This document shows, in pieces, positions 14,641-30,239 of a DNA stretch of 64,000 bases. The position numbers and the translations under genes were made by a program. This DNA is from Chryseobacterium cucumeris. GTDB lineage: Bacteria; Bacteroidota; Bacteroidia; Flavobacteriales; Weeksellaceae. Where the stretch lies: contig NZ_CP068760.1 in NCBI RefSeq assembly GCF_016775705.1, forward strand, positions 2,046,001-2,110,000. The letters are read 5' to 3'. The notes beneath the pieces are model-generated. The model had not been told where the DNA came from, did no database searches, and saw only the letters and a list, made by a program, of their open reading frames with translations. Numbering within the stretch: the first letter of the stretch is position 1; each line of letters begins with the position of its first letter.

Positions 14641-16827
14641 TTATTCTCCCAATTCCAGCTGGTTTCTGACCAAATTAAAATATTCTCCTTTTTTGGATAC
14701 TAATTCCTGGTGGTTACCCTGCTCTACAACTTCGCCCTTTTTCAAAACAATAATATTGTCTGCACTTTTTACTGTGGATAAACGGTGTGCAATGATAACA
14801 ACAGTTCTTCCCTTAAAAAACTCCTGTAAATTATCATGTATAATTTTTTCATTTTCTGCATCCAGTGCAGAAGTAGCTTCATCAAAGAAAATAAAATCCG
14901 GATTTTTATATACAGCCCTTGCAATAAGAATACGTTGTTTCTGTCCTCCGCTTAAATCATCTCCTGCGGCTCCTATTTTGGTATCAAATCCTAAAGGAAG
15001 ACTTTGAATCATTTCGTATATATTGGCTAATTTACAGGCACTGATCAATAATTTTTCATCTGCGTCTTCCTGCATGGCAATATTCTCCCTTATGGTTCCG
15101 CTGAATATGTATGAGTCCTGAAGAACAACTCCACAATTGCTTCTCCACCAATCATGATTGATCTGAAACAGCCCTTCCTGCCCGATGTTCAGATCTCCTT
15201 CTGAAGAGGGATAAAATCCCAGAAGAAGTTTGGATAATGTGGTTTTCCCACTTCCGCTTTCTCCAACTATGGCAAGAACTTTCCCGTTAGGAATTTTAAA
15301 ATTGATATTTTTTAAAACATAGGGCTGATGTCCCCCCGGATATTTGAACCATACATTATTTAAACTAATATCCTTACTCAGCAGAGCCTGATTTCCCTCT
15401 TTTAAATTAAGGTTTTCATCGGTTTGCTGTAGAATTTCCTGAACTCTTTTATACACTAAACTTGAATCCTGAAATGAGCGGAAAAACGCGACCAGATTTT
15501 CTATGGGTGCGGAAGCAATACCTATAATATATCCTATACTCAGCATCTCACCAACCGTCATTTTCCCAAGTGATACCCAATACACGCAAAAAAAGGTAGT
15601 TGAAAATATAAATAACTGTTTAATAATGCTGGTAACATTGGTTTGATAAATATCCAGGATAAGACTTTTTACTTTGGTCTTATATATTTTTTTCTGCAGC
15701 TCTTCCCACTTTGATATCCTTGAAATATGAGCATTACTAATTTTAACAGAAACCATCCCGGTAATCATCTCAACAAGATGATTTTTGCTTTCTGAATTTA
15801 ATTTAAAGGCATAATAATCTATAATCCTTCTTTTATTATGAAACAAGTAAATCCATACAGTGGAAAAAACGGCAATTCCCAGAAACCCCAATGCTATATA
15901 CTGGTTATATATTAAAAGCCTTATTATAAGTACAATCAGTAAAAAAACTGATAAAATATTCGATAACAATTGTCTGGTTAATAACTGTTCTATTTTTGAC
16001 TGTTCTTCTATTTTCTGTAATAGGTCTGTATATAATCTGTTTTCAAAAAAAGAGACGGGAAGTCTGACTGTTTTCTGCAGCAAGTCATTCAGCATTTTAA
16101 TGCTTACCTGTGAGCTAAAGTGTACTCCTACAAAATTCTGAAGGATATTGATGAGTATCTGCCCTCCATACAAAAGCATCTGAAATCCAAAAATTCCAAT
16201 GATCACTTTTCCTTCTTTCGACTTCATTCCTTCGTCAAACATTTTCTGAATCAGCTGAGGAAAGATATAGGAAATAACAGAACTTATGGTAATTAAAAAA
16301 ATCAGCAGTCCAATTTTGAAATTTTGTTTTTCTAAAACTGAACGAATATAGCTTTTGAAAATTTTTAAATCCTGCTGTTCAAAAGGAGGTTTAAACTCAA
16401 CAAACTCTTCTTTCGGGATTAATTGTAATCCAATCCCTTCGTTATCTGCGGACGAAATCCAAAGCTTTACAAACTGCTCTTTTTTAAGCTTTAGTCTGCC
16501 ATATTTGGGATCTGAGATATAATAAAAATTATTTTTGATTTTATAGAGTACAACAAAATGCTCCTGCTCCCAATGTAAAATGCAGGGTAAATGAACATCC
16601 TCGTTCAGTGTAGACAAAGGAACCTTAAAGGGAGTTGTATGAAAATACAGCTTTTTACCGGCATCATTAATATCTGCCAGAGTAACCCCGGAGCGGGTAA
16701 CTTCAGTAAGGTTTCTCAGATATACCAGGTCACAATCTTTACCGTAATATTTTAGAATAATCTTAAGGCAAACCGGACCGCAATCCATCTGTTCTATTTG
16801 GGAATAAAAGGGAAATTTGTTGAACAC
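14641..16827 (-). CDS. C39-peptidase-containing ABC exporter (PCAT) for GG-leader peptides
   Basis: The 728-residue protein combines an N-terminal C39 protease, a six-helix membrane domain (about 165-440) and an ATPase. Protease residues are Gln10, Cys16 (MDCGPVCL), His90 (EHFVVLY) and Asp106 (SDPKYG). The ATPase has GESGSGKTT, LSGGQKQR, FIFFDEATSALD and IAHRLST. PCATs cleave double-glycine leaders and export the core in one step. No in-frame ATG precedes the GTG at 16827, and the protease begins immediately, so GTG is the start. It is the last gene of the RiPP operon and is expected to process the five precursors encoded upstream. It is the only GG-protease in the window. Confidence 0.95.
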   Translation of the reverse strand: MFNKFPFYSQIEQMDCGPVCLKIILKYYGKDCDLVYLRNLTEVTRSGVTLADINDAGKKLYFHTTPFKVPLSTLNEDVHLPCILHWEQEHFVVLYKIKNNFYYISDPKYGRLKLKKEQFVKLWISSADNEGIGLQLIPKEEFVEFKPPFEQQDLKIFKSYIRSVLEKQNFKIGLLIFLITISSVISYIFPQLIQKMFDEGMKSKEGKVIIGIFGFQMLLYGGQILINILQNFVGVHFSSQVSIKMLNDLLQKTVRLPVSFFENRLYTDLLQKIEEQSKIEQLLTRQLLSNILSVFLLIVLIIRLLIYNQYIALGFLGIAVFSTVWIYLFHNKRRIIDYYAFKLNSESKNHLVEMITGMVSVKISNAHISRISKWEELQKKIYKTKVKSLILDIYQTNVTSIIKQLFIFSTTFFCVYWVSLGKMTVGEMLSIGYIIGIASAPIENLVAFFRSFQDSSLVYKRVQEILQQTDENLNLKEGNQALLSKDISLNNVWFKYPGGHQPYVLKNINFKIPNGKVLAIVGESGSGKTTLSKLLLGFYPSSEGDLNIGQEGLFQINHDWWRSNCGVVLQDSYIFSGTIRENIAMQEDADEKLLISACKLANIYEMIQSLPLGFDTKIGAAGDDLSGGQKQRILIARAVYKNPDFIFFDEATSALDAENEKIIHDNLQEFFKGRTVVIIAHRLSTVKSADNIIVLKKGEVVEQGNHQELVSKKGEYFNLVRNQLELGE

Positions 16828-16836
16828 AATAATAAG

Positions 16837-17754
16837 TTAAATTGTTATGCCTAGTGTTTTTAGCTTTTTAGTAAATTCTTCATCATTTACTAATTGCTGG
16901 TTATTGGATATTTTATCTAAATAATTTTCTATTATAATTTTCACTAATTTTTGCGGAGAACTTTTGATATGAGAAAAATTCTCGTTCAGATAATCTAAAA
17001 AATCTTCATCTTCAATTTTGTCGATACAACGCATGGTTATCAGTAAATTTTCCTGATCGCCTGAAAATTCATTTTGCTTTAGCAGAGCATTAAAGATCTG
17101 CTGAAATATCAGTCTTGTTTTTTTCTCATCCTGCGAAGATTTAAGAATGGCGATATAAGAGTTGTTTATAATATGTTTTATCATCCCCTGCTTATCAATA
17201 AGGGGAAGATCTTCAGCCAGGTTTTTGCAGCTCTCGTTTTCATGTTGGTTAAACATGAAAAAAGCCAATATCTTCATGACTTCTGTCTTATACCGCTCTT
17301 CATTTTGAGTACGTGCAAAAATTCTGATTTTATTAAGTGATTGTTCTCCAATAATTATGGCAAAATAAGGAAACGTGTTACTCTGAACTAAAGCACTTTC
17401 AATAGCCCTGTCAATATTTTCCTCTGCCAGTACAAAATCATTTTCCACATAATTTTTATACGCAAGCAAAGCATAGTCTAAGCTTATCATCCCCTGATGA
17501 ATAGGCTCAATGAAATAGGTATTCATACTTTGCATTTTTGAATAAAGGTAATTTCCTAAGGTGGTATTCCCTGTACGAAAAGCAGAAAGTGATTTTTCAG
17601 ACAGGTTCATATAGTAAAACAACCCTGCCTGGATATCTTCCGGAATATCTTTTCTAAATTCTTCAATCAGATTTTCGAAAATATGTCTTGGTTTTTTCAC
17701 CTCATATTCCCGGAATTCTACTGTTTTTATTTTGTCTAAAATTATTGTTTCCAT
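16837..17754 (-). CDS. unknown helical protein of the radical-SAM RiPP cluster
   Basis: This 305-residue soluble protein is predicted almost wholly helical (YALLAYKNYVENDFVLAEEN, then AIESALVQSNTFPYF), with TPR-like spacing around residues 90-150. No signal peptide, metal ligand set or nucleotide-binding motif is present. It lies 10 nt after the radical SAM gene and 9 nt before the exporter gene, so it belongs to the operon. A role as a peptide-binding partner or maturation chaperone is a reasonable guess, but I recognise no family. Confidence 0.75.
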   Translation of the reverse strand: METIILDKIKTVEFREYEVKKPRHIFENLIEEFRKDIPEDIQAGLFYYMNLSEKSLSAFRTGNTTLGNYLYSKMQSMNTYFIEPIHQGMISLDYALLAYKNYVENDFVLAEENIDRAIESALVQSNTFPYFAIIIGEQSLNKIRIFARTQNEERYKTEVMKILAFFMFNQHENESCKNLAEDLPLIDKQGMIKHIINNSYIAILKSSQDEKKTRLIFQQIFNALLKQNEFSGDQENLLITMRCIDKIEDEDFLDYLNENFSHIKSSPQKLVKIIIENYLDKISNNQQLVNDEEFTKKLKTLGITI

Positions 17755-17764
17755 ACATCATCTA

Positions 17765-19120
17765 TTAAGAAAGCACAGCTTGTTCATTAATATATCTCTG
17801 AAGAAGAATTCTGTCGTCAATATTAAATTTGAAGGAAGGACACGCCGGGATATTATCATACCAGTTTTTCGGACATGCTCCACCACACAGAGGAAGGAAT
17901 TTACAGCTTTTGCACCATGAGTTATTGTCCGGTATTTCATTAAACCAGTTTCTCATGACAACATTTTTGCTGTCTACATCTTTATCTTTCACAATGTTTC
18001 CGGCATAAAACTCAGAGTTATCATATTTTGGAGTGTATGGAATTTCCCAACATGTGGAGACATTTCCAAAAGCGTCAAATACTTCTGAGGTCTGGCTTAC
18101 TACCATACAAGGTTTAGTAACTCTTTCAGGAATAATCTGTGTTTTAAATTTTGCTTTTGATTGCAGAAGCTTCATATAAACTTCTATTTCAAGCTCAGCA
18201 AATTCTTCTTTTGACACGCCTTTAATAGTAGCTTTGTTATCACCCCAATCGTGGATAGGAGCAAGATAGAAACTTACATGCTGAAGGATTCCTTCTGCTT
18301 CCAGATAATCAATAAAATCTATCACATTGTAGCTGTTCTCTTTATCCACATTACATCTGATATTGAAACTTGCTTCTTTTTGATATAATTCGGAATTAAC
18401 AATTTCTTTGATATTTTTAATGATAATATCAAAACTGTTAGAACCATTTTTCAGATATCTTCTCTTATCATGGAATTCCTGAGTTCCGTCAATTGTGATC
18501 TGATATTCTGTAACCCTGTAATTTTTTACCAGTTTTTCAAAAAGAGAATATTTAAGACTTAAAGCATTTGTAATAATTCTTGAAGAATATTTTAAATTTT
18601 TCTCTTCACAAAGGCTGATTAAACGGGTAGATAAATTAGAGATAGCCGAAAGACCTGTTAACGGCTCTCCTCCATACCATGTAATACTCAAATGCTCCAG
18701 GTCGTTTGACAAACTTTCCATTTTAGTAATGATTCTGTCATAGGTAAGATCTAAAACTTCTTTTGACATACTTTTGTTAGTATGCAGCTGGCCGCAATAG
18801 TGACATCCCAGCTGGCAGTTTCCTGAAGGCTGAATCACATAAGAAAGTGTTTTCAGATCCTGATGATCTACAGACATAATGTTGTCTGAAAGGATTTCTC
18901 TTAACTCATCTTCAAACTCAGGTACATAAAATTCATTTTTTATCAGGTTGATAAAAATTTCTTCGGGAATCTGAGTGGTTTCAAGATTACATATTTTTTC
19001 ATATAACCCTTTTTTCACTTCAATGGAGGTTCCGGAACGGGTAGAAAAAAGAATGACATGATCATCTAAAATTTCTTCGTTTTCTATGGTATGGATATAT
19101 CTTGATAATTTGTATTTCAT
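17765..19120 (-). CDS. radical SAM/SPASM peptide maturase
   Basis: The 451-residue enzyme has an N-terminal region of about 90 residues that may hold the leader-binding (RRE-like) function. It is followed by the SAM-cluster motif NCQLGCHYCG (Cys102, Cys106, Cys109), the SAM-binding TWYGGEPLTG, and a C-terminal SPASM region with CWEIPY, CKSCKFLPLCGGACP and a last Cys in PACPSF for auxiliary clusters. Such enzymes install thioether or carbon-carbon crosslinks in ribosomal peptides. Five Cys/Trp-rich precursors lie immediately upstream, so they are the probable substrates. The crosslink type cannot be read from the sequence. Confidence 0.93.
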   Translation of the reverse strand: MKYKLSRYIHTIENEEILDDHVILFSTRSGTSIEVKKGLYEKICNLETTQIPEEIFINLIKNEFYVPEFEDELREILSDNIMSVDHQDLKTLSYVIQPSGNCQLGCHYCGQLHTNKSMSKEVLDLTYDRIITKMESLSNDLEHLSITWYGGEPLTGLSAISNLSTRLISLCEEKNLKYSSRIITNALSLKYSLFEKLVKNYRVTEYQITIDGTQEFHDKRRYLKNGSNSFDIIIKNIKEIVNSELYQKEASFNIRCNVDKENSYNVIDFIDYLEAEGILQHVSFYLAPIHDWGDNKATIKGVSKEEFAELEIEVYMKLLQSKAKFKTQIIPERVTKPCMVVSQTSEVFDAFGNVSTCWEIPYTPKYDNSEFYAGNIVKDKDVDSKNVVMRNWFNEIPDNNSWCKSCKFLPLCGGACPKNWYDNIPACPSFKFNIDDRILLQRYINEQAVLS

Positions 19121-19143
19121 AATTATTTTATTTTAATATTAAA

Positions 19144-19167
19144 TAGAGTAGCACGAATGCTACTCTA
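19144..19167 (-). terminator. hairpin between precursor array and radical SAM gene (possible attenuator)
   Basis: TAGAGTAGC and GCTACTCTA form a 9-bp perfect stem with a 6-nt loop. On the minus strand it is followed by a T/A-rich tract with only a three-T run, so it is a weak terminator or an RNA-stabilising hairpin for the precursor transcript. Confidence 0.6.
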
Positions 19168-19176
19168 CTTTTTACT

Positions 19177-19377
19177 TTAGTTGTAACTCCAACATTCGTT
19201 ACCACTGCAAGTTTGTGTACCTCCGAATCCCCAGCAGTCATTCTGACTTGTGCACGTTGCCGCTAGCTCTAAAGGTAACTTACCTCCTTTGATTGTCTTT
19301 ACTGAACTTTCGCTCATTCCCTGTAGCTTGTTTTCAGTGATTTTTTTAGACAATTCAAACAATTTTTTGTTTTTCAT
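19177..19377 (-). CDS. GG-leader RiPP precursor 1 (Cys/Trp-rich core)
   Basis: From the ATG at 19377 the peptide is 66 residues. The leader MKNKKLFELSKKITENK... ends in KTIKGG, and the core contains four Cys in TCTSQNDCW, TQTCSGNECW and a final WSYN. The leader is highly similar to precursor 2, and the core differs at a few positions. The upstream GTG one codon earlier is less likely. It is the last precursor before the maturase. Predicted fate: modified by the radical SAM enzyme, then cleaved after GG and exported by the C39 transporter. Confidence 0.9.
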   Translation of the reverse strand: MKNKKLFELSKKITENKLQGMSESSVKTIKGGKLPLELAATCTSQNDCWGFGGTQTCSGNECWSYN

Positions 19378-19412
19378 CACAATAAATCTTAGGTTAATTT
19401 TTTCTCTTGTAA

Positions 19413-19452
19413 AGTTTTAATTCCACACAAGACCCTGCAGAACATAAATTTG
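19413..19452 (-). repeat. duplicated leader/upstream segment of precursor genes 1 and 2 (copy 1)
   Basis: The segment AGTTTTAATTCCACACA and following bases recurs in near-identical form at 19706-19744. Each copy lies upstream of a precursor gene on the minus strand, marking a tandem gene duplication of about 290 bp that includes the upstream region. Confidence 0.7.
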
Positions 19453-19468
19453 TGGAATCAGAGTTCTA

Positions 19469-19669
19469 TTAGTTATAACTCCAGCAGCTGTTACCACTGC
19501 AAGTAGCTGTACCTCCGAATCCCCAGCAGCTGTTCTGACTTGTACAGTCTGCTGCTAATTCCAAAGGAAGTCTACCTCCTTTGATTGTCTTTACTGAATT
19601 CTCGCTCATTCCCTGTAGCTTGTTTTCAGTAATTTTTTTAGACAATTCAAACAATTTTTTGTTTTTCAT
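19469..19669 (-). CDS. GG-leader RiPP precursor 2 (Cys/Trp-rich core)
   Basis: This 66-residue peptide is nearly identical to precursor 1 in the leader (MKNKKLFELSKKITENK, ending KTIKGG). Its core has four Cys in DCTSQNSCW and TATCSGNSCW, ending WSYN. It and precursor 1 clearly arose by tandem duplication, and most differences fall after the GG (K/R, T/D, D/S, Q/A, E/S). ATG at 19669; the same maturase and exporter are expected to act. Confidence 0.9.
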   Translation of the reverse strand: MKNKKLFELSKKITENKLQGMSENSVKTIKGGRLPLELAADCTSQNSCWGFGGTATCSGNSCWSYN

Positions 19670-19705
19670 GACAATAAATTTTCATGGTTAATAATTCTCC
19701 TGAAC

Positions 19706-19744
19706 AGTTTTAATTCCACACAGGACTATACAGAATACAAATTT
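19706..19744 (-). repeat. duplicated leader/upstream segment of precursor genes (copy 2)
   Basis: Partner of the segment at 19413-19452, upstream of precursor 2 on the minus strand. Conserved bases may be a shared promoter or 5' UTR element, but no clear TAnnTTTG box is visible in it. Confidence 0.7.
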
Positions 19745-19746
19745 CT

Positions 19747-19929
19747 TTATGAAAAGCTCCAGCAATTAGGATCTACGTGCAGATCCGGCCTGCACCAACT
19801 ACAGGTACATTGGCTACAATGGTAAGCGAGTAAGCCACCGGTAATAAATACAAGGCCCTCTTTTTGCAGTTTTTTCATTTTGACATTTGTGATTTTCTGA
19901 GAAATCATTTTAAGCTTTTTGTTTTTCAT
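19747..19929 (-). CDS. GG-leader RiPP precursor 3 (Cys-dense core)
   Basis: The ATG at 19929 gives a 60-residue peptide. The frame runs further to a TTG at 19983, which I reject because MKNKKLKMISQKI matches the starts of the sibling leaders. The leader ends FITGG, and the core has five Cys in HCSQCTCSWC and the terminal DPNCWSFS. It shares only the leader start, GG and the C-terminal NCWS with the others, so it is a divergent paralogue. Confidence 0.88.
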   Translation of the reverse strand: MKNKKLKMISQKITNVKMKKLQKEGLVFITGGLLAYHCSQCTCSWCRPDLHVDPNCWSFS

Positions 19930-19998
19930 AGAAGTAAGTTTTTTATGTTTATTACGAATCTTAACTCTATAAAAATTAATCAAGCCTATGTGGGCGAA

Positions 19999-20205
19999 TT
20001 ATTGGTCAAAATAAGCCCAACAACTGTTTGATGCACATGGGCTGGTTCCATAACCCCAACATGCATTTGCACCGAAACATGCACAGTCTGATATAATCTC
20101 TTTTTGTATTCCTCCCTTAATAACTTCAACTGATTCTCTTTTCATTCCTGGGATTTTGTTCTCAGTAATTTTTTTAGACAATTCAAACAGCTTTTTGTTT
20201 TTCAT
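19999..20205 (-). CDS. GG-leader RiPP precursor 4 (Cys/Trp-rich core)
   Basis: This 68-residue peptide starts at the ATG at 20205. The leader MKNKKLFELSKKITENK is the same as in precursors 1 and 2 and ends VEVIKGG. The core carries five Cys in DCACFGANACW and SPCASNSCWAYFDQ. It extends three residues beyond the conserved CW-x-aromatic end of its siblings. It is upstream of the three other precursors in the array and downstream of precursor 5. Confidence 0.9.
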   Translation of the reverse strand: MKNKKLFELSKKITENKIPGMKRESVEVIKGGIQKEIISDCACFGANACWGYGTSPCASNSCWAYFDQ

Positions 20206-20274
20206 CACAATAAGTTTTCATGGTTAATAGTTTGCTGAAAAGTTCCGGCTTCAGAGAAGGTTCAGTAAAAATTT

Positions 20275-20466
20275 TTATGAAAAGCTCCAACAATCATTCG
20301 TCGAGCAGATAAACGGACCACAGTATGTATTACAATCAGGATGTCCATAGCAATCTCCAGTAATATTCTTTCCTGCGTAGATTGTTAAAACTTCTTGTTT
20401 TTCTAATTTTTTGATCTTACCGAGGGTTATCTTTTTGGATAACTCCACAAGTTTTTTGTTTTTCAT
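20275..20466 (-). CDS. RiPP precursor 5 with AG instead of GG at the leader junction
   Basis: The 63-residue peptide begins MKNKKLVELSKKITLGK and reaches the junction as VLTIYAG, so the first glycine of the usual double-glycine is Ala. The core has five Cys in GDCYGHPDCNTYC and FICSTNDCWSFS, ending with the same CW-S-aromatic motif. C39 proteases accept GG, GA and GS, and AG is less usual. It is the first precursor after the outer-membrane gene. Confidence 0.88.
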   Translation of the reverse strand: MKNKKLVELSKKITLGKIKKLEKQEVLTIYAGKNITGDCYGHPDCNTYCGPFICSTNDCWSFS

Positions 20467-20517
20467 GGTTATTAGTTTTATTCTTAGTGTATTAGTTTTG
20501 CAGTAAAAAAAACAGGA

Positions 20518-22644
20518 TTACAGCCGGGGGTTTTCATTTTGAGTTCTCCCCTTGTCTATATCTCCGGTATTCACCTTTTTTACTTTGTTGTTTCCAAATG
20601 TTTTGGATATGCTGAGTGATATGGATCTTAAATTTGATTGCGAAAGAGTTTCAATATATCCGTCATTATTATATAGTGTATTGCGGGAGTTTGAAAGATT
20701 CAGCAGATCTTTTACAGAAAGCTTGAACTTAAAATCTTTATAACTCTTTGAAACCTCAAGCTGATTATTGATAAAATAACCGTTTTTCTTATTAACTAAT
20801 GTATATGGAGAGGTGTAACCAAAGTTATAGCTTATGTTCCAGCCTTTATTCCAAAGATTATTTCCACTAATTGTAACGGAAGAGTTATTATACCAAGAAC
20901 TAGGATGAACATCATAGATATCTGCATTATTGATATAATACATTCCTGTTGAAAGATTAAACATCCATTTGTTTTCAAACAATGGTTTATTATAGTTCAA
21001 TCCCACATAAAGACGCTTTACATTACCTTCAAAGTTTTTGGGTCTTGTAATGGAAACATTATCTACAACCTCTGTATAAGGAAGAATAGGATTTTTTACA
21101 ATTCCGAAATTACTTACAAACACCCAGGTTCTTTTTATGCTGTAGCTCGCATTAAATAAATACATCTTTGCCACATTAAGGTCAGGATTTCCGGTTTCCC
21201 ACCAGGTTTCATTGTTTTTATAAATAAATGGGTTTAAATCATCTACATAAGGTCTCCATAATGCAGTTCTGTATCCTAGAGAAACTCTGTTGTTCTTATT
21301 GATCATATAAGAAAGGTTGATGCTGGGTACAATATTGTTGTAACTTCTGGAAAAGTTCTCACTAACCGTATTTTGTTTTGCGTTGATATTTGTGTTTTCA
21401 TAACGCACCCCTAAGTTGACGTCCAGCACAGAAAAGATTTTTTTCTTAATATTAGTATATAACGCGTTTATATTTTCATGATACGTGAAATTATTAGAAA
21501 ATAGGGTATTCAATGTACCGTCTGCGTTGTAATAAGCATAAGGGTTATCCGTAGAAAGCCAATTAAGTTTTCCTCCTGCTTCGAAACTAAGTTTTAATTT
21601 TTCGAAAGTCTTGGAATAATCTACTCTTACCGTATAATTGTCCTTCTTATAATCATTATATATTAAGTTTGAATATGGGCTGGTCAAATTGAAAAACTCT
21701 GTCGTATTATCTCTGTGATGGGTGTAATAATCAAAGTTGATATCCAATCGCTTGGATTTTTTATCATCATTAAAGCTGTAATAAACATTTCCTCCGAAAA
21801 GGTTCAGCTTATCATTTTGTGTATTTACCGTTCTGTTTTCAAAAATTCCTCCTGTAGTATCATAGTATATATTCCTGTTTTCAAGTGAAGATTCAGGTGT
21901 TTTGTGATAATATTCCAGAATACCTCCTATGCTGCTTCTTTCATTAAGCTCGTAATCAAAACCTGTATTTCCTCCAAAGTTGGTTTCTTTAATCAGCGTA
22001 CTTCCTATAATCTGATTTCTGCTGAATTTTGAGCTATAGTTATCAATACTGTTTCTTTGCAGGTCATTATTATTTTCAAAAAACAACATGGTATTATTTG
22101 AAAATCTGTTTTTATGATAATTTAAGGCAATATTTGCCTGCTGGCTGTTTTTTCTGTTTTGCTTATCTGTAATGGTAAAACTTCCTTTCAGTCCATCTGT
22201 TTCCAGTTTCTTCAGCTTCAGATTAATAATCATTGCATCCTCCAGATCATATTTTGAGGAAGGATTGGTAACCAGCTCTATCTTTACCAGATTAGAAGCC
22301 GGCATAGCATTAAGATATTGTATTAAATCTTTGCCTTTAAGAACTGATTTTCTGTCATTGATGTAAACAGAGGCGTTCGTTCCCAGAAGAGTTATTTTAT
22401 TATCATCTAATTTTAATAATGGTGTTTGAGAGAGAACTTCGGATATGTGATTTCCTACAACCAAATCGCTATTTTCAACATTAAAAACAAAACGGTCATC
22501 CTTTTGTTCAAAAAAAGGTTTTTTACCATTCACTTTTATTTCTGCAATTTGTTTTTCTATAACTGTTTTAATGGAATCTTTCTTCTCTTGAGAGAAACCC
22601 AACAAGGGAAGCACAACACTTACACATATTAATATTTTCCTCAT
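20518..22644 (-). CDS. outer-membrane beta-barrel protein (TonB-receptor-like) of the RiPP cluster
   Basis: The 708-residue protein has a Sec signal peptide (ILICVSVVLPLLGFSQ), a plug-like domain (NASVYINDRKSVLKGKDLIQ, then IELVTNPSSKYDLEDA) and a long C-terminal region of alternating aromatic strands ending in a TonB-receptor-style strand series. It fits the 'outer membrane beta-barrel family' of Bacteroidota receptors. It heads the operon, 51 nt before the first precursor. It could carry the mature peptide across the outer membrane, act as an immunity or sensing receptor, or import. The choice is inference. Confidence 0.88.
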   Translation of the reverse strand: MRKILICVSVVLPLLGFSQEKKDSIKTVIEKQIAEIKVNGKKPFFEQKDDRFVFNVENSDLVVGNHISEVLSQTPLLKLDDNKITLLGTNASVYINDRKSVLKGKDLIQYLNAMPASNLVKIELVTNPSSKYDLEDAMIINLKLKKLETDGLKGSFTITDKQNRKNSQQANIALNYHKNRFSNNTMLFFENNNDLQRNSIDNYSSKFSRNQIIGSTLIKETNFGGNTGFDYELNERSSIGGILEYYHKTPESSLENRNIYYDTTGGIFENRTVNTQNDKLNLFGGNVYYSFNDDKKSKRLDINFDYYTHHRDNTTEFFNLTSPYSNLIYNDYKKDNYTVRVDYSKTFEKLKLSFEAGGKLNWLSTDNPYAYYNADGTLNTLFSNNFTYHENINALYTNIKKKIFSVLDVNLGVRYENTNINAKQNTVSENFSRSYNNIVPSINLSYMINKNNRVSLGYRTALWRPYVDDLNPFIYKNNETWWETGNPDLNVAKMYLFNASYSIKRTWVFVSNFGIVKNPILPYTEVVDNVSITRPKNFEGNVKRLYVGLNYNKPLFENKWMFNLSTGMYYINNADIYDVHPSSWYNNSSVTISGNNLWNKGWNISYNFGYTSPYTLVNKKNGYFINNQLEVSKSYKDFKFKLSVKDLLNLSNSRNTLYNNDGYIETLSQSNLRSISLSISKTFGNNKVKKVNTGDIDKGRTQNENPRL

Positions 22645-22805
22645 TTACTTTCAATATTTCTGATGCAAACATCATGATTATACTCAAAGTCTACAAGATT
22701 AGTAATCCAAAATTGATCAATACCGGTATATCCTTTTCCAAAAATTTACAAATTCCCGACTCATAGAGATCAATATACAACTGATAAACAAATACTTATA
22801 TTTCA

Positions 22806-22838
22806 TTGATAAAAATTCGATGATAATTCATAAATTTG
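22806..22838 (+). promoter_or_regulatory. promoter of the TPR-AraC regulator gene
   Basis: TTG (22806-22808), 22 nt, then TAAATTTG (22831-22838) matches the Bacteroidota -33/-7 consensus. The ATG follows 16 nt downstream. It lies in the divergent spacer to the outer-membrane gene. Confidence 0.6.
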
Positions 22839-22854
22839 CAGTGTATTTAGAAAT

Positions 22855-24585
22855 ATGAAGAAGTTTCATTTAATTATTTTAACTGTTTTCCCTGTTTTTT
22901 TCTTTTCTCAAAGCATAAAGGGACTAAAAATTCCAGACTCGTTAAAGAATAAAAGTTATAAGTATATTAATGATGCTTACAATAAAGTATTCCAGGTTGA
23001 CAACGATAAAGCTGAGCTTTTAGCCAATTACATTCTATTAAAAGGAAAGAAAGAAAATAATAGGGACATCCTGTTTGATGGATATTATAATATAGCACGG
23101 GTAAAAAATCTGAAGAATGAAAACGGGCATCCCTTTGCAGATTCACTCATCTCTGCCTCAAAAAACGTTAATAACTACGATTACCCGGCAAAATCTTATA
23201 TATTAAAGGGTATTTTATTCAACAATGAAGGGAAATACAAAGAGGCTTTAGATGAATATACTATAGCTATTAATCACAACAAAGCTGAAAATAAAGAACA
23301 GTTTTTTTATATAAACAAGCTCATTGCTATCCTAAAAACAGCCACAGAAGAATATCAGGAAGCACTTCCTCTCTTTTTGAAATACTATAAGTATGAAAAA
23401 GATAAAATAAAAGACAACAATGTAGATGCTAAAAACTATATTGCTTCTATTTTTTCTTTAGCTAATATTTATACCAAATGTAAGGACTATAAAAAAGGTA
23501 TTGAATTTGCAGATCTGGGGCTTACAGAATGTAAGAAATACAATAATTATTCTTATTACAGCTATCTGCTTATGATAAAAGGGATTAGCCTCTTTTATGT
23601 AAAAGATTATTCGCTGTCTTATAAAATCCTGCTGGAAGTACAAAAAGGATTGATAACAAATAAAGATTATAGTAATCTAGGAGTTTTATATTACTATCTG
23701 GGAAAAATAAAATATGCAACCCGCAGTGAAAACGAAGCTATAGAATTTTTTAAAAAGGCAGATTCAATTTCTTTTACTTTCAACAGTTTTGAACCTATAA
23801 AAAGAGAGGGATATGAAATTCTGATAGACTTTTATAAAAAGAAAGGCGATTTAAAAAAACAACTAAAATACATTGACAACCTGATGTATAGTGACAGTAT
23901 AATAGCTGTGAACCGAAAAAATCTTTCAAAAGAAATTCTGAAAAAATATGACACCCCTTTGCTTATGAAAGAAAAGGTAAGTGTAATTGAAAGACTGAAC
24001 CATCAGAATGCCTGGCTGATAGCGTGTTTGCTTATGATTACTTTAGCTTTCATATTTGTAATCAGGAAAAACAGGAAGAAAATAAAAGAATACGAAAAGC
24101 AGGCAAAAGTATTATCAGAAAAACCTTTGAGCACCCCTGTGCTGGAAAAAGAGCAAAAGAATGAAACTCCCATTACAAATGATCCTTCCATTATCATTGA
24201 AAGAAAGGAAAAAGCTACGAAAAGTGACCTTTCTTCTAATCCAAAATTTAAAATACTCATTGATAAAATAGAACAGTTTGAAAAGACTAATAGTTTTCTC
24301 AATAAAAATATTACTTTAGATTCTCTGTCAAAAGAATTTGATACAAACAGAGATTATCTCTCAAAGCTAGTCAATGAATTAAAGGGTAAAAACTTTTCCC
24401 AATATCTGAACGAGCTTAGGATCAACTATATTGTTGAAGAATTAAAATCTAACGAAAAAATAAGAAAGCATACCATTGCTGCTATTGCTGATGATATTGG
24501 CTACAACAATGCTGAGTCTTTCACGAATGCCTTCAAAAAAATAACAGGAACACTTCCTTCTTATTATATAAAAGCACTCAATTAA
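22855..24585 (+). CDS. membrane-anchored TPR-AraC transcriptional regulator
   Basis: The 576-residue protein has a signal peptide (LIILTVFPVFFFSQS), a periplasmic TPR-type helical region (about 25-370), one membrane segment (WLIACLLMITLAFIFVI, near residues 385-402), a charged linker and a C-terminal AraC DNA-binding domain (about 465-576; ITLDSLSKEFDTNRDYLSKL and AAIADDIGYNNAESFTNAFK). This hybrid layout is common in Bacteroidota sensors that control nearby loci. It is divergent from the outer-membrane gene and upstream of the second precursor, so it probably regulates one or both RiPP clusters in response to an envelope signal. Confidence 0.9.
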   Translation: MKKFHLIILTVFPVFFFSQSIKGLKIPDSLKNKSYKYINDAYNKVFQVDNDKAELLANYILLKGKKENNRDILFDGYYNIARVKNLKNENGHPFADSLISASKNVNNYDYPAKSYILKGILFNNEGKYKEALDEYTIAINHNKAENKEQFFYINKLIAILKTATEEYQEALPLFLKYYKYEKDKIKDNNVDAKNYIASIFSLANIYTKCKDYKKGIEFADLGLTECKKYNNYSYYSYLLMIKGISLFYVKDYSLSYKILLEVQKGLITNKDYSNLGVLYYYLGKIKYATRSENEAIEFFKKADSISFTFNSFEPIKREGYEILIDFYKKKGDLKKQLKYIDNLMYSDSIIAVNRKNLSKEILKKYDTPLLMKEKVSVIERLNHQNAWLIACLLMITLAFIFVIRKNRKKIKEYEKQAKVLSEKPLSTPVLEKEQKNETPITNDPSIIIERKEKATKSDLSSNPKFKILIDKIEQFEKTNSFLNKNITLDSLSKEFDTNRDYLSKLVNELKGKNFSQYLNELRINYIVEELKSNEKIRKHTIAAIADDIGYNNAESFTNAFKKITGTLPSYYIKALN

Positions 24586-24733
24586 AACAAAATTATAAAC
24601 TGCTAAAAATTAATATTTTACATGTAAATCTCACCGAAATTTATCAATTTCGGTATATATAAATTCTTTATTTACAGGAATAGAATTTCCTTTGTACTTC
24701 AATTTATTTAAAAATCTTAAAATTACTTCAGCA

Positions 24734-24904
24734 GTGAAAAAAATTAAAAAAACAGAAAAAAGATTATCCCTAAACAAAGTTCAAATGTCTAAAATAAAAG
24801 GAGGGATTAGCTCCGGAGGAGGTGATCAAATGCTTTTGAATGGTGGTAATGATACGGTCTTAGACAAAACATTAGATACTCTAGATGTGACAGTAAAAAA
24901 TTAA
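24734..24904 (+). CDS. GG-leader RiPP precursor without cysteine
   Basis: I prefer the GTG at 24734 (56 residues; leader KKIKKTEKRLSLNKVQMSKIKGG-like, typical of Bacteroidota class I lanthipeptide leaders). A longer form from a TTG at 24692 gives 70 residues, and no ATG is available for either. After KIKGG the core is rich in Ser/Thr/Asp and Gly (ISSGGGDQMLLNGGNDTV, then LDKTLDTLDVTVKN) with no Cys at all. Six Ser/Thr could be dehydrated by the downstream LanB-type enzymes. A second GG occurs inside the core. It is followed by a strong terminator. The start choice is uncertain; the gene call is fairly safe. Confidence 0.75.
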   Translation: MKKIKKTEKRLSLNKVQMSKIKGGISSGGGDQMLLNGGNDTVLDKTLDTLDVTVKN

Positions 24905-24922
24905 TGACAATTTTAACATTTT

Positions 24923-24961
24923 ATCAGTAATTTTGAGAAAAATTACTGATTTTTTATTTTT
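24923..24961 (+). terminator. strong intrinsic terminator between precursor and S15 hydrolase gene
   Basis: ATCAGTAATTTT and AAAATTACTGAT form a perfect 12-bp stem with a GAGA loop, followed by a T-rich tract (one A interrupts it) running up to the next start codon. Transcripts reaching the enzyme genes would have to read through it or start elsewhere. Confidence 0.88.
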
Positions 24962-27187
24962 ATGAAGTACCTGTTAGCCCTATCTTTTTTCATTACATTC
25001 AATATTTCTTTTTCTCAGAAAATAAGTATTAAACATTTTAATGAATACAATATTGAAAAACTGCAGCCTTTAATTTCTTATTTAAATTCTGAAATACAAA
25101 AGAATTATAAAGAAAAAGACAAGGCGGTAAAGTATGATAATCTTTTCAGAGTAAGTATGGCAGCACAAAACTATGATACTGCTTTAAGTCAGCTAGATTC
25201 AGTACGCAGTGTTTACAGAAAAAGTAATCCCATTATTTCTTACGCCATGGGAACACAGTATGAAATTTACATAAATGCTCAAAAAAATAAAAATTCGCAC
25301 AAAAATTTTCAGGAAAAATATAAAGAAGAATTTCTCAAAAAATATGAAAGTCTGGCTATAAAAACACAGATCATACTTCCCCGCTATTTCAATGGTGATA
25401 CCGAGAAAACAAAAAAGGAAATTCTGGCTACTCTTAAAAATGATTTTGAGAACAAAGACAGCGTAGATCTGAAAAAAGCTTTACAACTATGCAGAAGTTA
25501 TAACTCATATATAACAGGACCTACATTTGATATTGCTAAAAATTATTTAAAAGAACTCGACTCCAGGAACTTTGAGGTAAAAGACAGTTTATTAATCAAT
25601 AATGAAATTAGTATAAGGGTTGTTTTAAATAAAAAAATAGCTAGTCCGGAATCTACCATCCTGGTCAATTCCATCTATCCTGATGCAGAAGATGCGAATG
25701 ATCAAAAAGTACAGGCAAGCTATGGTTATCATTCTGTTTACATATATCCCAGAGGAAAATATACGAGTAACGCTGCCATAGAACCTTTTGAGCATGAGCA
25801 GGAAGATATTAATAAGGTCATTGACTGGATTACAAAACAGCCCTGGAGCAATGGCAAAGTAGGAATGATCGGAGGCAGTTATCTGGGATTCAGCCAATGG
25901 GCAGCAGCTAAAAATGTTCATCCGGCTCTAAAAACTATTATTCCACAGGCCTCTGTAGGAATTGGCGTAGTAGATTTCCCCATGAATAATAACATCTTTG
26001 CCTCCTATTCTCTTCGTTGGATTAACTATGTTACCAATAATAAAATGCTTGATGCGGGATTCAAAGATGAGGATCATTGGAATTCTGTTTTTAAAAAATG
26101 GTATGAAGGTGGTGAGGCATTTAACAAGTTGGATTCTATTGCCGGTAAAAAAAATATCATATTTCAGCGCTGGTTAAAGCATCCGGCATTTGACAGCTAT
26201 TGGCAGAAAATGATTCCTTACAAAAAGGAATATTCTAATATCAACATCCCGGTTTTAACCATTACGGGATATTATGATTCTGATCAGCTGGGAGCGTTAT
26301 ACTATTTCAGAAATCACTATAAATACAACAAAAACGCTAATCATTATTTGATTATCGGGCCCTATGATCATTCGGGAGCTCAGGGTTATATCAAAAATAA
26401 TCTAAAAGGATATACTATTGATTCTGAAGCCAATATGGATATCGCAAATATAACAATGGAATGGTTTGATTATATTCTGAAGGGTAAATTAAAACCAGCT
26501 TTCTTAAAAGATAAAATTAATTATCAGGTAATGGGAACCAATGAATGGAAAAGTACCTCCGGCATTGATGATTTTGATAAAAATAAATTAAAATTCTATA
26601 TCACAAACCAACATCAGCTTTCTCTAGCAAAAGATAAAGATAAAGACTTCACACCACTTACGGTAGATTTAAAAGATCGTACCAATGCAGATGAGCTTTT
26701 TAAGCAAAAAGATAATGTGCTGGATAGTAAAATTTACAGTCCAGACGCCGTTGTATTTTCATCAGGGCCATTTGAAAAACCGGTGGAATTTACAGGAAAT
26801 TTTGTGGGTAATCTGAAATTATCTGTTAATAAAAAGGATGTTGATGTATATATGAAACTTTATGAAAAGACCAAAGAAGATAAATATTTTCTGTTATCCA
26901 CCTATTATGGAAGAGCAAGCTATGCTAAAAGCTCAGAGAAAAGAAAATTGCTGTGTGAGAACAAAGAAACAAGTATAACTGTTACCAACAATGAATTTGT
27001 AAGTAAAAAAATGGAAAAAGGAAGTAAACTGGTTTTAGTATTAGGAGCTATAAAAAATCCACTTATGCAGATAAATTATGGAACAGGAAAAGATGTAAGC
27101 GAAGAAACCATCAAGGATGCTGCAGTTCCTATGGAAATAAAATTTTACAATAACAGCTTTATAGAAATCCCTATTTCACTTAATTAA
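24962..27187 (+). CDS. secreted S15/CocE-type (X-Pro dipeptidyl-peptidase-like) hydrolase
   Basis: The 741-residue protein has a signal peptide (YLLALSFFITFNISFSQ), an N-terminal helical extension (to about 200), an alpha/beta-hydrolase catalytic part and a C-terminal beta domain typical of PepX_C. The nucleophile is in GGSYLGFSQW (Ser306), with Asp439/441 in GYYDSDQLG and His470 in GPYDHSG as the rest of the triad. Family members cleave after proline or hydrolyse acyl and ester bonds. It overlaps the dehydratase gene by 1 nt (TAATG). In this cluster it could trim, mature or destroy the modified peptide outside the cytoplasm. The substrate is unknown; note the core has no Pro. Confidence 0.88.
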   Translation: MKYLLALSFFITFNISFSQKISIKHFNEYNIEKLQPLISYLNSEIQKNYKEKDKAVKYDNLFRVSMAAQNYDTALSQLDSVRSVYRKSNPIISYAMGTQYEIYINAQKNKNSHKNFQEKYKEEFLKKYESLAIKTQIILPRYFNGDTEKTKKEILATLKNDFENKDSVDLKKALQLCRSYNSYITGPTFDIAKNYLKELDSRNFEVKDSLLINNEISIRVVLNKKIASPESTILVNSIYPDAEDANDQKVQASYGYHSVYIYPRGKYTSNAAIEPFEHEQEDINKVIDWITKQPWSNGKVGMIGGSYLGFSQWAAAKNVHPALKTIIPQASVGIGVVDFPMNNNIFASYSLRWINYVTNNKMLDAGFKDEDHWNSVFKKWYEGGEAFNKLDSIAGKKNIIFQRWLKHPAFDSYWQKMIPYKKEYSNINIPVLTITGYYDSDQLGALYYFRNHYKYNKNANHYLIIGPYDHSGAQGYIKNNLKGYTIDSEANMDIANITMEWFDYILKGKLKPAFLKDKINYQVMGTNEWKSTSGIDDFDKNKLKFYITNQHQLSLAKDKDKDFTPLTVDLKDRTNADELFKQKDNVLDSKIYSPDAVVFSSGPFEKPVEFTGNFVGNLKLSVNKKDVDVYMKLYEKTKEDKYFLLSTYYGRASYAKSSEKRKLLCENKETSITVTNNEFVSKKMEKGSKLVLVLGAIKNPLMQINYGTGKDVSEETIKDAAVPMEIKFYNNSFIEIPISLN

Positions 27188-29382
27188 TGCCACGTTTTCC
27201 ATTTCAGTTTTTTGATACATTTGTTGTCAGATCACCTATTTTTTCATACAAAGAATTTCAGGATAATTTCTCTGGTGAAAACTTCGCCAAGGGATCTTTA
27301 GAAAAATATTGCAACCATACAATTTTTAGAGAAGCTATTTATTTAGCTTCTCTTTCCTTATATGATGAGATAGAGAAATTGATGGATCGTGAACATACAA
27401 CGTCTAATTTGCCAAATGAAAAAACAAAGATTTCATTATTAAAATATTATAACCGCTCAAGTACCCGCTGTACCCCATTTGGTTTATTTTCAGGAGTAAG
27501 TACTGGAAAATTTGAAAAAGAGACTCTATTTCCGATATTCTCAGAGCCTACAAAAGTAAGAGATACAAAGCTGGATATGCATTTTTTAGTAGCGCTATCA
27601 GAGCAGCTTCTTTTAATTCCGTCCATTAAAAATAGTATCTCTTTTTTTCCTAACAACAGTATTCATAGGGTTGGAAATAAAATTCGCTTTGTAGAATATG
27701 AAAATACAGGAGGAAAAAGAGATTACATCATTTCTTCCGCTCCCATTTCCAAAGAGTTAGAACTTATACTACAGTTTTCAGAAACGGGTAAAACAATTGA
27801 CCAGCTTGCCACCTCTCTTGTTCATGAAGATATATCCTTTGAAGAAGCCCGGGAATTTATTGATGAGCTTATCGGAAATCAGGTTTTAATAAGTGAAATT
27901 AATCCAACAGTTTCGGGAGGAGATTTTCTGGAACGATTAATTTATATGCTAAACAAAATTGGCAGGCATCAGGAAAAAGATATTTTGGTGGCTATTAAAA
28001 ACAAGATCAGTGAACTTGATTTACATTTTGGAAATACGGCAGAAGCATATTCTGAAATTGAGGAACTCATCAAAAAGCTGAATGTACAATATGAAAAGAA
28101 ATATCTTTTTCAGACAGATCTTTATTTTGAAGATGAAACAAATTTATCCTATCAATGGAAAAAAGAACTGAAGAAAGGAATCTCTTTTCTGAATAAAATT
28201 GCTATTCCTTACAAAGAATCTGCCTTAGAAAAATTCAAAAAAGCCTTTTATGAAAGATTTGATAATGAAGAAGTTCCATTATCTTATGCTTTAGATCCGG
28301 AAATAGGAATTGGCTATTTACAAGATATTCCGGCCAAAGGAGTTCATCCTTATATTGAAGATTTAATCCTGCCCTATTCTAATCAGAAACAAGAAATTCA
28401 GGTAAATCTTAATCCAGTACAAATTATTCTCAATCGTAAATTACAAAAAGCTTATTGGAATAAAGATCATGTAATACATTTAACTGATGATGATTTTAAT
28501 GGTTTTGAGGAACAGTGGAATCAACTGCCAGATACATTGTCCGTTATGGCCGAAATCATTTCAGAAAATCAGCAGGAAAAATTATTTTTAAAATCTGCCG
28601 GTGGAAATGCCGGAAAATTATTGGGCAGATTCTGTTCAGAAAAATCATCTATAAAAGATTTGGTGAAAGCCATTGCTGAAAAAGAACAGGAACTTAATCC
28701 GGACAAAATTTTAGCAGAAATTGTACACTTACCCGAATCCAGAATTGGAAATGTGATCAGAAGACCTTCTATAAGAGAATATGAAATTCCTTATCTGGCG
28801 AGCTCTGCATTAGAAGAAGACAATCAAATTTTTGTGGAAGACTTATACCTGTCCATAAAGAATAACCAGTTATTCCTAAGGTCAAAGAAGCACAATAAAG
28901 AAATTATTCCTCATCTTACGAATGCCCATAATTATTTAAAGAACTCTTTACCTGTCTACCATTTTTTATGCGATTATAATAATCAGAATGTAAAACCTTA
29001 CTTATCATTTAACTGGGGGGGATTATCCCAAATTTATGACTTCCTTCCAAGAGTTGAATATCAAAATATAATTCTGTCTAAAGCACAGTGGAAAATTGAT
29101 CCTGAACAAATTCATTATTTTGATTCTATTCTTCAATCTGGTAAAAGAGATCTTCTGTTTCAAAATATTGAAGAGTGGAGAAAATTAAAACAAATTCCAC
29201 AATGGATACAGTGGGTAAAAGGAGATAATACACTGACGGTCAATCTGAAAAATTACGATTTAATTCAAATGTTTTTATTATCCGTAAAAAATGAGAAACT
29301 AATTTTTATTGAGGAGTTCCTGTATAATGATCAGTCAGATTATATTCATCAATTCGTTTTCTCTCTTTATAAAGATCTATAA
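27187..29382 (+). CDS. lantibiotic dehydratase, glutamylation (N-terminal) protein of split LanB
   Basis: The 731-residue protein matches the Lant_dehydr_N domain, which transfers glutamate from glutamyl-tRNA to Ser/Thr of a leader-bound peptide. The opening DTFVVRSPIFSYKEF and the motif YNRSSTRCTPFGLFSG near residue 90-105 are characteristic. Its length equals the N-terminal two-thirds of NisB, so it is the first half of a split enzyme; the elimination half is the next gene. The 1-nt overlap with the upstream gene suggests translational coupling. Confidence 0.92.
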   Translation: MPRFPFQFFDTFVVRSPIFSYKEFQDNFSGENFAKGSLEKYCNHTIFREAIYLASLSLYDEIEKLMDREHTTSNLPNEKTKISLLKYYNRSSTRCTPFGLFSGVSTGKFEKETLFPIFSEPTKVRDTKLDMHFLVALSEQLLLIPSIKNSISFFPNNSIHRVGNKIRFVEYENTGGKRDYIISSAPISKELELILQFSETGKTIDQLATSLVHEDISFEEAREFIDELIGNQVLISEINPTVSGGDFLERLIYMLNKIGRHQEKDILVAIKNKISELDLHFGNTAEAYSEIEELIKKLNVQYEKKYLFQTDLYFEDETNLSYQWKKELKKGISFLNKIAIPYKESALEKFKKAFYERFDNEEVPLSYALDPEIGIGYLQDIPAKGVHPYIEDLILPYSNQKQEIQVNLNPVQIILNRKLQKAYWNKDHVIHLTDDDFNGFEEQWNQLPDTLSVMAEIISENQQEKLFLKSAGGNAGKLLGRFCSEKSSIKDLVKAIAEKEQELNPDKILAEIVHLPESRIGNVIRRPSIREYEIPYLASSALEEDNQIFVEDLYLSIKNNQLFLRSKKHNKEIIPHLTNAHNYLKNSLPVYHFLCDYNNQNVKPYLSFNWGGLSQIYDFLPRVEYQNIILSKAQWKIDPEQIHYFDSILQSGKRDLLFQNIEEWRKLKQIPQWIQWVKGDNTLTVNLKNYDLIQMFLLSVKNEKLIFIEEFLYNDQSDYIHQFVFSLYKDL

Positions 29383-29387
29383 ATAAG

Positions 29388-30239
29388 ATGATAACCAGAA
29401 AATTTCATCCGGGAAGTGAATGGCTTTATTTCAAAGTTTACACCGGGATCAAAACTTCAGATACTATTTTACAGGAAGTTATAGAACCATTAGTTGAGCA
29501 ATTACAAATTCAAAACCTTATTGATCAATGGTTTTTTATACGATATAACGATCCTAAACCCCACCTGAGAATAAGATTAAACCTTAAAAATATAACTGCC
29601 TGTAGTATGATCCTGGGAATGATCAATTCCTTATTTAAGGACTATCTTGAATCGGGAGAAGTCGCTTCTATCATTATGGATACCTACTCAAGAGAACTTG
29701 AACGTTACGGTGAAAACACGATAGAATACGCGGAAGACTTCTTTTTTAAAAGCAGTCAATTGATTTTAAACTTTCTGGAATACAGTGATGAAGAAAAGAT
29801 CATTACTTCTTTATTTTATATAGATCAAATTTTATCAGCATTCAACCTACCTCCTGAAAAGAAAATAGAGTTTGCGAAGCGTTCTGAAAATGCTTTCAAA
29901 TCAGAATTCAATGCAGATAAGAACTTAAATAATCAGTTAAAGAAAAAGTATAATGAGTTTTATCCTCATTACTTTGAATTTATTACCTCTGAGGAATATG
30001 AAGAAATCAGAAATTTAATAAAAAGTAATATCACTGAAATTGCATTAAAGCCTGAAGAACTTTCAAAATTGGAAAATGACAATGTATTAAAAATAAAACC
30101 AAAAGATTTCTTCAAAAGTATTTTTCATATGCATATTAACCGATTGTTTATTTCCCATCAAAGATTATTCGAGATGGTGGTTTATGATCACTTATTCCGT
30201 CTTTATAAAACAAACAGAGCCTATTCTCTGAAAAAATAA
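29388..30239 (+). CDS. thiopeptide-type elimination protein (SpaB_C), second half of split LanB
   Basis: The 283-residue protein begins EWLYFKVYTGIKTSDTIL and contains WFFIRYNDPKPHLRIRL near residues 47-63, the signature of the SpaB_C/'thiopeptide-type bacteriocin biosynthesis' domain. This domain eliminates the glutamate added by the partner, leaving dehydroalanine or dehydrobutyrine. It follows the partner by 5 nt and ends the cluster. No cyclase (LanC) or other cyclising gene follows; the next feature is a tRNA. Confidence 0.92.
   Translation: MITRKFHPGSEWLYFKVYTGIKTSDTILQEVIEPLVEQLQIQNLIDQWFFIRYNDPKPHLRIRLNLKNITACSMILGMINSLFKDYLESGEVASIIMDTYSRELERYGENTIEYAEDFFFKSSQLILNFLEYSDEEKIITSLFYIDQILSAFNLPPEKKIEFAKRSENAFKSEFNADKNLNNQLKKKYNEFYPHYFEFITSEEYEEIRNLIKSNITEIALKPEELSKLENDNVLKIKPKDFFKSIFHMHINRLFISHQRLFEMVVYDHLFRLYKTNRAYSLKK

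Follow-up and report, generated by a model that had tools for sequence, protein, structure and literature searches.

Several described systems of ribosomally synthesized and post-translationally modified peptides (RiPPs) come close to the locus considered here, which lies in a 64,000-nucleotide stretch of the Chryseobacterium cucumeris genome (G000:C1:2046001-2110000, hereafter the window; the genome is a single contig of 4.81 Mb) and combines one radical-SAM/SPASM maturase with five Cys-rich precursor peptides. As far as the accessible parts of the sources go, the maturase PapB joins the Cys and Asp of CX3D motifs and accepts CX0D to CX6D (PMC9413430), the thioether of NxxcA joins Cys23 to Asn20 (PMC8326336), and chryseoviridin-type graspetide loci of Chryseobacterium hold several precursors per locus, which are duplicated and exchanged (PMC8939145). 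Graspetide loci with PF14905 barrels and TPR proteins in their vicinity are likewise described in partly accessible literature. On the same footing, the Bacteroidales radical-SAM clusters BGC6-9 have GG leaders, a C39 exporter and an outer-membrane protein but no membrane fusion protein (PMC10352776). Class I lanthipeptides of Bacteroidetes, e.g., pinensin, have LanB in split form and leaders with an LxLxKx5L motif and a GG end; radical-SAM genes in lanthipeptide clusters are mentioned in the same source in general terms (PMC7268733). Neither a Cys-x-x-aromatic core rule nor a two-arm layout of the kind discussed below was described in the literature within our reach, which excluded most subscription papers.

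An earlier reading of the same DNA (the original prediction) named one SPASM maturase, one C39 exporter, one outer-membrane barrel and five precursors with four to five Cys each, and all of these are present. The present analysis adds a first CW-G-[FY] repeat in precursors 1, 2, and 4, the protein U305 (16837..17754), a regulator (22855..24585) and a LanB operon reaching to 30239. We estimate at about 0.5 the probability that the locus produces a cocktail of Cys-thioether cross-linked, ranthipeptide-like peptides exported by the C39 exporter, with a transporter and a regulator serving in their uptake or sensing; the class of chemistry is held more confidently than the role. The result is a core rule open to experimental test, a repeated Cys-x-x-aromatic pattern, for SPASM maturases that form a group without a name so far and occur here in Weeksellaceae, in Sphingobacteriaceae, and in one other family of Flavobacteriales.

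Precursors, core motif and maturase

The genes are transcribed from the minus strand in the order barrel, precursors 5, 4, 3, 2, and 1, maturase, U305, and C39-ABC exporter. Precursor 1 (19177..19377, core KLPLELAATCTSQNDCWGFGGTQTCSGNECWSYN) and precursor 2 (19469..19669, core RLPLELAADCTSQNSCWGFGGTATCSGNSCWSYN) have four Cys each; precursor 3 (19747..19929, core LLAYHCSQCTCSWCRPDLHVDPNCWSFS), the ATG start of which was set at the common MKNKK leader, precursor 4 (19999..20205, core IQKEIISDCACFGANACWGYGTSPCASNSCWAYFDQ) and precursor 5 (20275..20466, core KNITGDCYGHPDCNTYCGPFICSTNDCWSFS) have five each. The leaders are of the C39 type, ending in GG in precursors 1–4 and in AG in precursor 5, and the exporter carries PF03412. 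No meaningful NCBIfam or Pfam match was found for precursors 1–5, in line with the original prediction, which recognised no named family that fits, and no match to precursor 2 was detected on plasmids by tblastn.

Maturase relatives were found in 33 of 320 genomes of the host's family (E ≤ 1e-40) and in 12 of 399 genomes of the family of Pedobacter sp. AJM (E ≤ 1e-80). At E ≤ 1e-100, a class sample of 395 genomes yielded only the window's own genome, and a phylum sample of 395 genomes only the window's genome and G819. Neighbour counts cover 37 of the 46 maturase genomes (G034, G098, G132, G090, G250, G147, G065, G142, and G819 were left out) and stretches of about 9–20 kb per locus (8.7 kb for L041); L002–L006 were taken to be presumably the same genomes as G152, G130, G183, G177, and G1042.

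For the core analysis, 57 hand-picked cores, trimmed manually behind the GG or AG, were used: 18 from the group with a CW motif (CW set) and 39 from distant loci (e.g., CPNLSTCVTYTGDC, CGTWGGACTTWGGSCGTWG, CTVNNSCTVNNSC, CTSGNCQSTNCGWN). Close orthologues of listed cores (including all five of L036, slots 1–2 of other strains, and L003 slot 3), the decayed L004 slot 3, L044, L047, and L053 (which copy L043, L046, and L051), the glycine-rich peptide of L055, and spurious-looking open reading frames (ORFs) that are short or overlap were left out; the near-copies L040/L041, L042a/b, and L076/L077 were kept. For the counts at positions relative to Cys, Cys positions were held and the remaining residues permuted. 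The five C-terminal ends quoted in the original prediction are correct, and their CW motif is far beyond chance: CW[GSAIMY][FY] occurs 27 times, in 18/18 CW cores, vs. a shuffled mean of 0.1. Precursors 1 (CTSQNDCWGF...CSGNECWSY), 2 (CTSQNSCWGF...CSGNSCWSY), and 4 (CFGANACWGY...CASNSCWAY) have two copies of the motif, in the form C-x(4-5)-C-W-x-[FY], the first repeat being CW-G-[FY]. The more general pattern Cx(4,5)C..[FYWN] was present in 15/18 CW cores and 31/39 distant cores, compared with about 3 in shuffles. Phe or Tyr occupied position Cys+3 at 37 of 83 Cys in the CW set (7 expected) and at 39 of 144 in the distant set (9 expected). Trp at Cys+1 was enriched in the CW set only (27/83 Cys); Asn was enriched at Cys-2, +3, and +4 in the CW set (25, 15, and 12 of about 83); Leu was enriched at Cys+3 (44/144) and Cys-3 (52/138) in the distant set, and Asp at Cys-1 in both sets (22/83 and 27/142, respectively).

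In the 37 loci that were read, eight maturases are accompanied by CW cores; they are 63–100% identical to that of the window (from Chryseobacterium and one Pedobacter) and form one clade in the tree of 37 (support 100/99). At the other loci, Trp is absent and Cys is kept, and the residue recurring at Cys+3 is Phe/Tyr, Asn or Leu. Database proteins 63–69% identical to the maturase come without genomic context. The prediction that Cys-Trp marks a common cross-link site was not supported as a general rule, and Trp as a family-wide link site was rejected, since it is missing from the cores of more distant maturases. The likelier ring, as far as residue statistics can tell, would join Cys to a residue near +3: CW cores and CGTY-type cores (L039, L072–L075) belong to different supported clades of the maturase tree, and we favour this ring over Cys-Trp because the +3 enrichment spans cores of such different clades.

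The maturase (17765..19120, minus strand; 451 aa; PF04055 and TIGR04085) has an intact CxxxCxxC motif (residue 102) and an intact seven-Cys SPASM pattern. Among the best 25 of its 37 NCBIfam matches, only the generic SPASM domain model was above cut-off and no RiPP-maturase model was, which agrees with the original prediction, where no named family was recognised as a match. The top match was TIGR04463 (residues 39–441; 231.4 bits, cut-off 525), followed, all below cut-off, by Clo7bot (153 bits), CefB (152), FlmE/OhkG (146), geopeptide (130), and PapB (NF047865; 98.2 bits, cut-off 340) maturase models; the SCIFF maturase model TIGR03974 (CteB type) scored 53.5 bits (cut-off 425). TIGR04463 was likewise first and below cut-off for four tested relatives. 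Membership of an existing NCBIfam maturase family was rejected, as the maturase misses the cut-offs among these 25 matches and the four relatives miss that of TIGR04463. By sequence, two solved chains were related, 5wgg (E = 7.4e-9) and ChlB (E = 0.0052), the former being CteB according to the accessible part of PMC10352776. The combination of a radical-SAM/SPASM maturase with Cys-rich precursors is that of ranthipeptides, and the closest models, those of enzymes for Cys-rich peptides, together with the closest structures point to Cys chemistry, short of proof. In three loci, a second, weaker maturase-like radical-SAM ORF (62–105 bits) stands no more than about 6 kb from the first (L076, 3924..5219; L077, 4220..5518; L045, 3338..4639).

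The CW cores also permit a different reading, in which the maturase would join Trp to the Phe/Tyr at Trp+2 (W-x-[FY]) in a C–C cyclophane, Cys being left to form disulfides after export. The aromatic residue stands at Trp+2 in 27/27 counted CW sites, by the pattern used for counting, and known cyclophane maturases are also SPASM proteins; their models score weakly here (GrrM/OscB 56 bits, AmcB 53 bits), below the models for Cys-rich substrates. Trp is missing and Cys retained in the cores of related maturases, and the third residue of known three-residue cyclophanes is mostly polar. We consider cyclophane formation unlikely.

The claim of five different cores stands for the number of precursors, but precursors 1 and 2 are near-duplicates of each other and slots 4 and 5 vary in type between close strains. 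Across six strains, slots 1 and 2 are almost constant. In 60-column blocks, the precursor region of the window is 87–100% identical to that of L036 (G058), except around slot 4, where identity is 80, 53, 50, 38, and 68%; compared to L037, slot 4 is kept (84–98%) and the slot-5 core falls to 43–56%. The slot 4/5 types occur in all four combinations among the six strains (the window; L036 and L003; L037 and L002; L004). This pattern fits recombination between slots, with repeated change as the alternative, and the combination of kept slots 1–2 with exchanged slots 4–5 fits peptides used in competition. In L004 (Chryseobacterium viscerum), slot 3 has seemingly decayed to a short ORF that has lost the CW Cys at its end (7257..7379), and two slot-5-type precursors stand in tandem (6383..6835), so that this strain has six precursor ORFs, counting the decayed one.

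Proposed export, uptake and mechanism

The exporter (14641..16827, minus strand; 728 aa, GTG start) has PF03412, PF00664, and PF00005 above cut-off (Peptidase_C39, E = 1.1e-34), and a C39 exporter lies near the maturase in 35/37 loci. Between exporter and maturase, on the same strand, stands U305 (305 aa), which matches no Pfam or NCBIfam family. It is predicted to be all-helical and TPR-like (structure model with pLDDT 80.5, the first 23 residues being poor); TPR proteins are its nearest folds in the PDB, without any match reaching E ≤ 0.001. The protein search gave three close copies, and distant homologues, 14–42% identical (aligned), were found by inspecting the maturase–exporter gap in more distant loci. 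A homologue was present in 24/37 loci, 14 of which supplied its profile. U305 is a possible helper of the maturase or the exporter. A conserved secreted-looking protein of 183–187 aa was observed between U305 and the exporter in L046 (10747..11298), L047 (11013..11564), and L049 (7221..7784).

The barrel gene (20518..22644, minus strand; 708 aa) has PF14905 (E = 6.2e-58) and PF00593 above cut-off. Its structure model (pLDDT 78.2) is closest in fold to Cir/microcin V (E = 8.9e-22, TM-score 0.55/0.61), and its profile matches Cir residues 35–144 (E = 4.4e-6). PF07715 (Plug) was found in 6/16 aligned barrel relatives, the window's own row being without a Plug match. After the signal-peptide-like start, the sequence shows a segment EIKVNG, considered as a possible TonB box. 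The protein is predicted to be a complete plugged TonB-dependent transporter. An open pore was set aside, as the structure model shows a plug. The outer-membrane barrel of the original prediction is present as a gene, but its use as an exit pore is doubtful because a plugged transporter is predicted. Barrels occur in 27/37 loci, with about 3.6 expected by chance (from 26 PF14905 matches in the window genome, relatedness ignored). Two genes of related loci each read as two overlapping ORFs, perhaps through a frameshift or an assembly error, the barrel gene of L072 (4899..7297) and a phosphodiesterase-like gene of L004 (12730..14480).

The barrel model resembles transporters of siderophores, haem, and copper, and the cores are rich in Cys; exported peptides could therefore bind metal and be recovered through the transporter. 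Nearly all TonB-dependent transporters would, however, match such folds, the barrel is absent from the stretch in 10/37 loci, and no metal-linked gene was found among the genes scanned. Metal binding is the least probable of the explanations considered.

Upstream of the barrel, on the plus strand, is a membrane-spanning regulator (22855..24585) with a signal-peptide-like start, a TPR-like region, one transmembrane segment, and an AraC-type helix-turn-helix domain; HTH_18 was above cut-off and the TPR matches below, and hydrophobic segments lie at residues 6–24 and 385–403. Regulators occur in 15/37 loci, plus one weak case, with about 1.1 expected (from eight long regulator-like matches in the genome, relatedness ignored). 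This layout and recurrence, together with the near-constancy of slots 1 and 2, agree with a self-sensing signal: exported peptides would re-enter via the plugged transporter and be read by the periplasmic part of the regulator, which would drive both operons, and killing would not be the point. A title in the reference list of PMC8326336, itself accessible in part, ties SCIFF-derived ranthipeptides to quorum sensing. On the other side, the regulator is absent from 21/37 loci and, as part of the LanB operon, may be specific to that arm. A pure signalling role seems improbable to us.

For the thioether reading, we infer the following course. The leader (MKNKKL..., ending in GG or AG) would be recognised by the N-terminal part of the maturase, possibly with U305 as a helper. 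The single radical-SAM/SPASM enzyme would then install thioether cross-links from the Cys of all five peptides, each Cys being linked a few positions on, most likely to Phe/Tyr or Asn at about Cys+3, so that small rings would be repeated along the core in a ranthipeptide-like manner. The C39 exporter would trim and export the peptides, and the cores would act as a cocktail, with slots 1–2 kept and slots 4–5 exchanged between strains. Uptake or sensing of the peptides, rather than their release, would fall to the plugged transporter and the membrane-spanning regulator.

Several observations weigh against this course. No thioether-forming maturase model reaches its cut-off, and to our knowledge, Phe/Tyr as a thioether acceptor is without precedent in the literature consulted. 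The cores tested are related sequences, which makes the chance values given above too low; those of L069 and L076–L079 have no aromatic residue at Cys+3, and a ring from Cys to Phe/Tyr leaves the strict Trp of the CW clade unaccounted for. In addition to the loci without a barrel or a regulator counted above, U305 is missing in 13/37. Each of the three being absent from several loci, none is obligatory.

The divergent LanB operon

The regulator is followed on the plus strand by a Cys-free LanA-like peptide with a GG leader (24692..24904, start uncertain; leader RLSLNKVQMSKIKGG; NF038153, 10.7 bits, cut-off 22), a secreted-type CocE/NonD (S15) hydrolase (24962..27187; PF02129 and TIGR00976 above cut-off), and a split LanB with a glutamylation half (27187..29382; PF04738, E = 1.1e-135) and an elimination half (29388..30239; PF14028, E = 1.2e-63; TIGR03891 above cut-off). 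Both LanB domains of class I lanthipeptide synthesis are present; no Cys is encoded in 24692..24904, and no LanC (PF05147) match lies nearby. The sole PF05147 match of the window genome is at 0.80 Mb, beside the genome's other LanB. That LanB is a 1047-aa open frame (G000:C1 798534..801727) adjoining this only LanC match.

A similar arrangement recurs with maturases 35–42% identical to that of the window. L080/L042 (G108) and L085/L050 (G143) keep the gene order of the window, except that an S9 peptidase replaces the hydrolase, and the operon diverges from the barrel or the maturase. L089 (G090) resembles them and has a 722-aa protein, a small one-Cys peptide, and other genes ahead of the maturase. 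In L088 (G819), the LanB halves stand ahead of the regulator and the peptide; up to the end of the stretch, where an ORF running off would escape the list, no peptidase is listed. The LanA-like peptide is in the same place in L080, L085, L089, and L091. Six Sphingobacteriaceae loci (L070, L081–L084, and L090) have a fused LanB with response-regulator-like genes nearby (scanned in L081), and no LanA-like peptide beside it passed the filter used.

PF04738 was found within 15 kb of the maturase in 16/46 genomes, with 0.48 expected (one row per LanB gene, second fragments dropped, 4.9 Mb per genome assumed; draft contigs may hide neighbours). Six of these belong to the CW lineage, two of whose eight members (L005 and L006) have no LanB on the maturase contig, four to further Flavobacteriales, and six to Sphingobacteriaceae. 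PF05147 was near LanB in 0/16, and 9/16 genomes had no PF05147 match at all; the 11 matches found adjoin other LanB genes. LanC-less LanB genes therefore stand beside such maturases far more often than by chance, and pure coincidence was set aside on the count of 16/46 vs. 0.48.

The LanB operon is likely a second arm that shares the regulator and the exporter. That it is an unrelated neighbour is still a substantial, if lesser, possibility: in 30/46 maturase genomes no LanB lies within 15 kb, and 10 of these lack any LanB match; many of the LanB genes in these genomes are distant from the maturase; and six of the 16 near cases come from one lineage. Against it stand the excess of near cases over chance, ten of them in genomes outside that lineage, and the similar divergent layout in G108, G143, and G090. 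Tentatively, and with more doubt than for the sharing itself, the locus may be extended to a general two-arm RiPP system of Bacteroidota. In it, a radical-SAM arm would knot swappable Cys-repeat peptides and a LanC-free LanB arm would dehydrate a Cys-free partner, with a common C39 exporter; a TPR/AraC membrane sensor would read the system's own peptides via a dedicated TonB-dependent receptor, and in Sphingobacteriaceae both enzymes would act on the same Cys-repeat peptide.

Comparison with known systems

The locus adds two untyped parts, the predicted helical U305 and the predicted plugged transporter, and related loci across Bacteroidota are a likely source of uncharacterised peptides. With chryseoviridin-type graspetide loci, it shares multiple precursors, their duplication and probable exchange, and a PF14905 barrel and TPR-like proteins nearby, but the window has a radical-SAM enzyme in place of the ATP-grasp enzyme and a different core. 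No ATP-grasp match was found among the large genes of 14641–30239, the span scanned, and graspetide identity was set aside on this ground. Like the Bacteroidales radical-SAM clusters, the locus has GG leaders, a C39 exporter, and an outer-membrane protein; unlike it, most of the nine clusters have YcaO, LanC-like or LanM enzymes, and no CW core is noted in the accessible part of the source (PMC10352776). The LanB arm resembles pinensin-type systems in its split LanB and its LxLxKx5L-like leader ending in GG and differs from them in having no LanC nearby, a core without Cys, a secreted hydrolase in the operon, and Ile as the last Leu of the leader motif.

Many of the cores have Asn near Cys, as in NxxcA, but in the CW set this Asn mostly precedes the second Cys by two positions or follows the first by three or four, not in N-x-x-C spacing. 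TIGR04463 is the best NCBIfam match and, by its family name, has Cys-rich targets, whereas the window maturase and four relatives fall below its cut-off. In comparison with the ranthipeptide maturases PapB and CteB, the window maturase is under both cut-offs, its cores are without a CX3[DE] repeat, and the linkage proposed here is inferred; what the systems have in common is the SPASM domain, a Cys-rich repeated core, and a short Cys-x(n)-acceptor spacing, CteB being the best solved relative of the window maturase.

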